33,115 nt of DNA from Terriglobia bacterium (GTDB taxonomy: Bacteria > Acidobacteriota > UBA6911), in contig JAIQGI010000060.1 in NCBI GenBank assembly GCA_020072565.1, positions 1 through 33,115 of the forward strand. Direction: 5' to 3'. The notes beneath the pieces are model-generated. The model was not told where the DNA came from, ran no database searches, and saw only the letters and a list, made by a program, of their open reading frames with translations. Both the position numbers and the translations under genes were made by a program. Of this stretch, positions 7,322 through 8,466 are shown one piece after another. Numbering within the stretch: position 1 is the stretch's first letter; every line of letters begins with the position of its first letter.

Positions 7322-7482
7322 CGGGAGCGGCACGCATCCTGGACCCCCGGTTCTGATTTATCCGCAACACGCCGACAGAGCATTACCCGTAAGCAGGATC
7401 CTGCTGGGCAGGGAAAAGAATTGCAGCTCGTTTTTCCTATCCACAAGTGCTATCCTGCGCGGACGCAAGGAGGTCCATTCCG

Positions 7483-8466
7483 ATGTTACACGCGCTGCCG
7501 TTTATTCTGGCATTGACTGTCCAGGCAGCGGGCCAGCAAACGCCGCCGCCCCCACCGGCTCGGGTAGTTCCCGCTCCGGTGGTCCAGCGGCCCGCTCCAC
7601 GCCCGCTCTACGACGAGAAAGCCGACGCGAAAGCCGCCATCGAAGCCGCTGTTCATGCGGCGGCGACAGACGATATTCGCGTGCTCATCACCTGGGGAGC
7701 CAACGACGATGCGGGCTCGATGAAGTTCGCGGATGCAAGGAAGGCGCCCGAGATTGCTGAATCAACGCCGTCGTTCTTTTCGGACGAATACAGGGTCGTC
7801 AACGTCGACGTCGGGCATCTCGATAAGAACCTGGATCTGGCGAAGACCTATGGCGTGAAGCTCTCGGCCGACGGCCTGCCGGCGCTGACCGTACTCGACG
7901 TGACAGGCAAGGTCGTCGCGAATACGACGGCGGCGGCACTCCGGCCGGACGGCGATATCGCGGGCATCGATGCGCCCAAAGTCGCCGCCTTTTTGAAACA
8001 GCATCAGGCGCCGGCGCCCGATGCCGTCGCGCCATTCGAGGCTGCCCTGAAGCAGGCAGGGAAAGACGGGAAGACCGTCTTCGTCTGGTTTTCGGCACCC
8101 TGGTGAGGGTGGTGCCATAGGCTGGGCGCCTGGATGGCGACCGAAGACGTTGCATTATTGATGGCGAAAGAGTTCGTAACCGTGAAGCTTGACTACGATC
8201 GGGGGATTGGCGCGAAAGACATCGAGAAGCGTTACATCGACAAGGGACAGGGACTGCCGTGGTTCGCGTTCGCCGCGCCGGACGGCACGGCGATCGTGCA
8301 CAGCACCCGTCCCAAGCTCGGCAACATCGGGCATCCGAATTCGCCGGACGAAGTCGAGTACTTCAAGACAATGCTGCAGAAAGCCCAGAAGCATCTGACC
8401 GATGCCGACATCGATGCTCTGATCACGTCGCTCGTGGCGTTCAACAAGGCCGCGAATAAAAAGTAG
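7483..8466 (+). CDS. Candidate selenocysteine-containing secreted double-thioredoxin protein (UGWC motif)
   Basis: ATG 7483 follows a perfect AAGGAGGT site (7467-7474). Read through one in-frame TGA at 8104-8106, the gene encodes 327 aa. A Sec signal (residues 1-18) and a Pro-rich linker precede two thioredoxin-like domains. The first (about 45-190) keeps the cis-Pro loop GLPALTVLD but has no cysteine pair. The second (about 190-327) reads VFVWFSAPW-TGA-GWCHRLGAWM and has cis-Pro in GLPWFAF. TGA occupies residue 208, exactly where the first redox Cys of a CGWC motif is expected; Cys211 is the resolving residue. The frame stays open for 120 codons beyond it, with domain homology and codon use intact. 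A hairpin fitting bacterial SECIS rules starts 4 bases later. The likely role is a thiol/selenol oxidoreductase in the envelope. The alternative is a Cys-to-stop mutation or sequencing error. No sel genes lie in the window. Confidence 0.72.
8107..8142 (+). promoter_or_regulatory. Candidate bacterial SECIS hairpin
   Basis: Twelve base pairs can form. GGTGCCATAGGC (8111-8122) pairs with GCCT (8128-8131), ATGGCG (8134-8139) and CC (8141-8142), leaving a GG bulge at 8132-8133 and an A bulge at 8140, with one G-U pair. The apical loop is TGGGC (8123-8127), with G at its second position. Sixteen bases separate the TGA from the loop. Published bacterial SECIS rules ask for about 16-37 bases and a G among the first two loop positions, so it just qualifies. 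A competing 6-bp hairpin, GGTGCC/GGCGCC with an 8-base loop, is also possible. Confidence 0.55.

Follow-up and report, generated by a model that had tools for sequence, protein, structure and literature searches.

Thioredoxin-like selenoproteins with a UxxC motif are a common and well-known kind. The 119 prokaryotic selenoprotein families inventoried in 2026 include UxxC thioredoxins, PF13098 thiol:disulfide interchange proteins, and Trx7/PDZ proteins with a CxxU motif (PMC13188914); as of 2006, only 3 selenoprotein families had been attributed to Acidobacteriota (PMC1794560). Here we describe an acidobacterial gene, located in a 33,115-nucleotide stretch of DNA that was analysed as a whole (hereafter, the window), whose product is a real, uncatalogued member of the UxxC kind. 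Judging from sequence, its in-frame UGA is almost certainly read as selenocysteine (Sec) at the reactive position of a thioredoxin-like protein; the basis for this predicted decoding is a TGA at the redox-Cys column, RNA-level constraint after the TGA, and the presence of Sec machinery. That relatives in other bacteria keep both the UGA and a hairpin argues that the selenoprotein is real. Overall, we consider it very likely that the gene encodes a tandem thioredoxin-like protein, probably exported, whose UGA would be translated as Sec via SelB and a bSECIS element to form a U-G-W-C redox centre.

Several described systems resemble this protein in part. The tandem Thioredoxin_7 proteins of Planctomycetota (L011-L088) share its two-domain architecture, its cis-Pro loop, about 33-46% identity, and Sec or Cys in one column; all except L037 carry Cys at that column and nearly all have WCxWC in both domains, whereas the acidobacterial Sec clade combines U in domain 2 with the absence of CxxC from domain 1. 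The thiol:disulfide interchange selenoprotein PF13098 (PMC13188914 Table 1; ‘Trx-like 2’ in PMC2398784) has the same thioredoxin-like fold and UxxC motif, but the window protein has two domains, scores 21.9 against that model (below the cut-off of 27), and fits Thioredoxin_7 far better. The Trx7/PDZ selenoprotein NF041199 is likewise a Thioredoxin_7 selenoprotein, but one with Sec in second position (CxxU) and a PDZ domain, and the window protein reaches only 14.6 against its cut-off of 300. DsbH/Thioredox_DsbH (NF043050, PF03190; PDB 7tkv, 3ira) and the DsbD C-terminal domain (6dnu) resemble the second domain in fold and likely in redox chemistry, but both are Cys enzymes without the tandem architecture, and the score for the DsbH equivalog NF043050 was 25.9 bits against a cut-off of 190. 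The best Foldseek match, the Xylella ‘disulphide isomerase’ 3fk8 (TM 0.82 over the target), is single-domain. None of the NCBIfam selenoprotein families exceeded its curated cut-off (best, seleno_TsoB, 20.7 vs 805). A tandem Thioredoxin_7 UxxC family was also not recognised among the 119 inventory families (PMC13188914), though it could sit there under another name, because the comparison stopped short of every representative sequence; as far as recognised, the family adds an architecture absent from that inventory.

Reading frame and domain architecture

The gene (7483-8466; this and all features below are on the forward strand) runs from an ATG at 7483 to a TAG at 8464-8466, encoding 327 codons, and is recognised from its reading frame, homologues, and predicted structure. 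As the initial annotation had claimed, a single in-frame stop interrupts it, the TGA at 8104-8106 (codon 208, the predicted Sec208), which frame reading and the homologue column identify as the Sec codon. It lies in the context FVWFSAPW-U-GWCHRLGAW and is followed by 119 codons, among them the TGC of the resolving Cys211 of the UxxC motif (8113-8115, from the frame) and the codon of cis-Pro259 (8257-8259, from frame and alignment), opposite the redox motif in the loop GLPWFAF. Standard annotation would take the UGA as the end of the protein, and the second half would appear as a fragment. The ribosome site proposed earlier is present as a Shine-Dalgarno-like AGGAGG (7471-7476, within AAGGAGGT) a few bases 5′ of the ATG. 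The export signal proposed with it fared less evenly: the N-terminal stretch (7483-7539), which reads MLHALPFILALTVQAAGQQ and has low pLDDT at residues 1-20, is hydrophobic in translation and plausible as a signal peptide, but a positively charged n-region is missing, and export, while probable, is our guess.

A Pfam Thioredoxin_7 (PF13899) match runs directly across the TGA (residues 183-266, E 7.5e-17; score 61.7 vs a gathering score of 27), and the same model matches all 31 members of family set A2. An AlphaFold2 model built from the family alignment (mean pLDDT 91.7) predicts two thioredoxin-like domains, the first at 7624-8007, delimited also by the homologue alignment, and the second, containing U-G-W-C and supported by Pfam, at 8026-8397. 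In the second of these folds, the TGA stands where the first redox Cys would be; in the model, residue 208 lies directly before helix 209-218, where an attacking residue is normally found.

The first domain of the window protein is indeed free of cysteine, as had been claimed, with GANDDAGS where homologues have GANWCGWC, and loss of CxxC is common to the acidobacterial Sec clade (GANDDENC in L009, similar in L010, L162, and L163). Nearly all Cys homologues carry WCxWC in both domains, the exceptions being the related L083 and L084, which have no WCxWC in domain 1, and L085, with a variant motif. The planctomycete L037 combines U in domain 2 with an intact WCSWC in domain 1, so replacement by Sec accompanies loss of the first centre only in Acidobacteriota. 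The first domain retains its fold and probably has a binding or structural role. We lean, by a narrow margin, toward an uncatalogued Acidobacteriota family in which gain of Sec in domain 2 went with loss of CxxC in domain 1, turning a two-centre enzyme into a one-centre selenoenzyme, with a separate Sec gain in a planctomycete that keeps both centres.

Homologues and the codon at the redox column

Scanning 84,980 species genomes yielded 80 loci with relatives, to which three orthologues were added by a phylum search. Across 84 tandem proteins, the codon at the redox column is TGC or TGT in 78 and TGA in six, and another residue or stop in none. Cys therefore aligns with the TGA in the rest of the family, and the claim that the TGA falls at the attacking-Cys position beyond chance is borne out. 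The six TGA carriers are the window gene, four further acidobacterial genes—L009 (Acidobacteria fen_186, 53% identity to the window protein), L010 (Vicinamibacterales Prado007, 50%), and L162 and L163 from two other acidobacterial genomes (57% and 55%)—and L037 from Planctomycetota (39%). Independent assemblies of the nearest orthologues thus have TGA at the matching codon. A single query pattern with Cys, APWCGWCH, biases the matches toward Cys, so that the share of Sec is, if anything, underestimated.

A one-domain relative from the same genus (L100:1411-1965) also has TGA at the corresponding place; this thioredoxin-like sequence, which has SW-U-GWC and a highly stable hairpin 3′ of the UGA, is likely a second selenoprotein of the superfamily. 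In phylogenetic trees, the acidobacterial Sec proteins group together as a single, fully supported clade; L037 is placed apart from them with weak support, compatible with either one or two Sec origins. Around L009 and L010, the listed ORFs, many of them shadows, revealed no obvious common partner gene, and no relative was found in viral contigs. Two Cys-bearing loci deserve mention in their own right: L013, labelled as Vicinamibacteraceae isolate PLA1, groups with planctomycete PLA isolates and may be mislabelled, and L015:5001-5996 has one in-frame stop (not TGA) elsewhere, possibly reflecting decay or a sequencing error.

Constraint after the TGA and a proposed bSECIS hairpin

Decay downstream of the stop, which the initial annotation had named as grounds for rejecting the Sec reading, was not observed: a comparison of the window gene with L009 gives a dN/dS of 0.41/1.18 (0.35) before the TGA and 0.39/0.97 (0.40) after it, and this near equality on both sides indicates that selection still acts on the second half as protein. 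Synonymous sites directly after the TGA are constrained far more strongly. In the three pairs formed by the window gene, L009, and L010, synonymous differences over the first 12 codons are 0.13, 0.13, and 0.00, as opposed to 0.40-0.60 elsewhere in the same pairs. Across the five acidobacterial Sec genes, 70/74 (95%) of synonymous codons are identical over codons +1..+11, compared with 649/1130 (0.57) upstream and 375/590 (0.64) downstream, and codon windows over this block rank highest of 271 for synonymous conservation. Arg213 is AGG in all five Sec genes and in 1/48 Arg codons of Cys genes (Fisher P 2e-6, with phylogeny ignored), a value that overstates the significance because the five genes are related.

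The initial annotation had proposed a bSECIS element here, and folding and conservation point to a candidate hairpin at 8111-8142, with an outer stem (8111-8117/8135-8142), an inner stem (8118-8122/8128-8132), and an apical loop UGGGC (8123-8127) 16 nt from the UGA. A published bSECIS model asks for a loop of 3-9 nt, a stem of 4-16 bp, a spacing of 16-37 nt, an MFE <= -7.5, and G in the first two loop positions (PMC13188914). The window gene agrees with it (5-bp inner stem, loop UGGGC, spacing 16, -15.8 kcal/mol). We rejected this fit as proof: the model is permissive in GC-rich DNA, passing 282/800 TGA triplets of the window and 1393/2000 (70%) synonymous recodings of the gene, of which 164/2000 (8%) were as stable or better. 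The weight is therefore carried by conservation at synonymous sites, which, together with the paired changes, supports the proposal. All five inner pairs form in each of the five acidobacterial Sec genes and in the paralogue L100, where the loop position is kept (UGGAA) with different stem letters, and in 0/78 Cys homologues. Counting from the T of TGA, pairs 15-29 (U-G, C-G, or A-U) and 16-28 (A-U or C-G) vary on both sides with pairing kept. The planctomycete L037 does not form the inner pairs in that register; a separate hairpin there passes the model.

These observations bear directly on whether the TGA might be a nonsense mutation or a miscalled TGC or TGT in an ordinary Cys protein. TGA is one base away from both Cys codons, and the source genome does hold a decayed paralogue fragment (G000:C53:13752-13931, L157 about 2753; HQGAWMALNTVAPVLAKGFVTLKIDEDR...), flanked by stops and lacking a redox motif. 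Yet a matching TGA occurs in five acidobacterial assemblies as well as in L037 and L100, and constraint continues past it, reaching its extreme at the synonymous sites directly after; given this conservation of the TGA, we regard a pseudogene or error as refuted in practice, its probability being close to nil.

Alternatively, termination at the TGA could be normal, giving a one-domain protein, with the second domain made separately from an ATG at 8134. An ORF with that start (8134-8466) does exist, and some termination is expected at Sec UGA codons. However, this ATG is positioned where the first helix of domain 2 ends, past the redox motif and without a ribosome site, so that a separate product would have neither the first strand nor the active site; the homologues, moreover, are single chains, and we judge this arrangement very improbable. 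Equally hard to credit is insertion of Cys, Trp, or Arg at the UGA, whether through a near-cognate tRNA or an altered code, even though any residue at this codon would leave the frame open. TGA ends 2/9 long ORFs checked in the window and thus works as a stop here, the genome holds a dedicated tRNA-Sec and SelB, every family member without the TGA has Cys in this column, and RNA-level constraint acts on the codons that follow the UGA.

Selenocysteine machinery and proposed chemistry

Under the preferred Sec reading, and by analogy with established selenoprotein biology, SelB carrying Sec-tRNA(Sec) would decode the UGA at 8104-8106, directed by the intragenic hairpin at 8111-8142. Sec208, at the helix start of the second domain, would be the attacking residue of U-G-W-C and act on a disulfide; Cys211, as in thioredoxin chemistry, would then resolve the selenenylsulfide. 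Again by analogy, here with DsbH and the DsbD C-terminal domain, the protein would likely serve in thiol-disulfide reduction or exchange. The family offers a natural comparison set: members with Cys, members with predicted Sec that either keep or have lost the first redox centre, and a paralogue with Sec predicted at the same column. This set bears on the benefit of selenium and on whether selenium can stand in for a second dithiol centre.

The source genome (7.46 Mb, 98% complete) encodes one detected tRNA-Sec with anticodon TCA and two copies each of selA, selB, and selD above curated cut-offs; the machinery whose absence would have counted against Sec is thus in place. Among the seven genomes with a TGA gene, selA is present in 7/7 and tRNA-Sec in 5/7, with no tRNA-Sec found in G121 (L010) or G001 (L100), both selA-positive, fragmented assemblies. 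We did not accept this co-occurrence as proof: 33/46 Cys-bearing genomes also have a selA match, as does the Cys-bearing acidobacterium G219, in which the top-scoring sequence for the tRNA-Sec model is a tRNA-Ser. Because the machinery is common in Cys-bearing genomes, its presence is weak evidence, a necessary condition and no proof.

The duplicate machinery loci lie at G000:C19:227772-232814 (L151), C3:24786-26669 (L089), C23:82892-84256 (L129), and C13:114307-115233 (L131), with one set clustered as selB-selD-selA on C19. Identity between copies is 42% for selA, 42% for selB, and 49% for selD; two sets alongside one detected tRNA-Sec could reflect one organism or a mixed assembly (contamination 3.83%). 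On C13, the match to selD (L131) falls within an 806-residue open frame, and this SelD may be fused to another domain.
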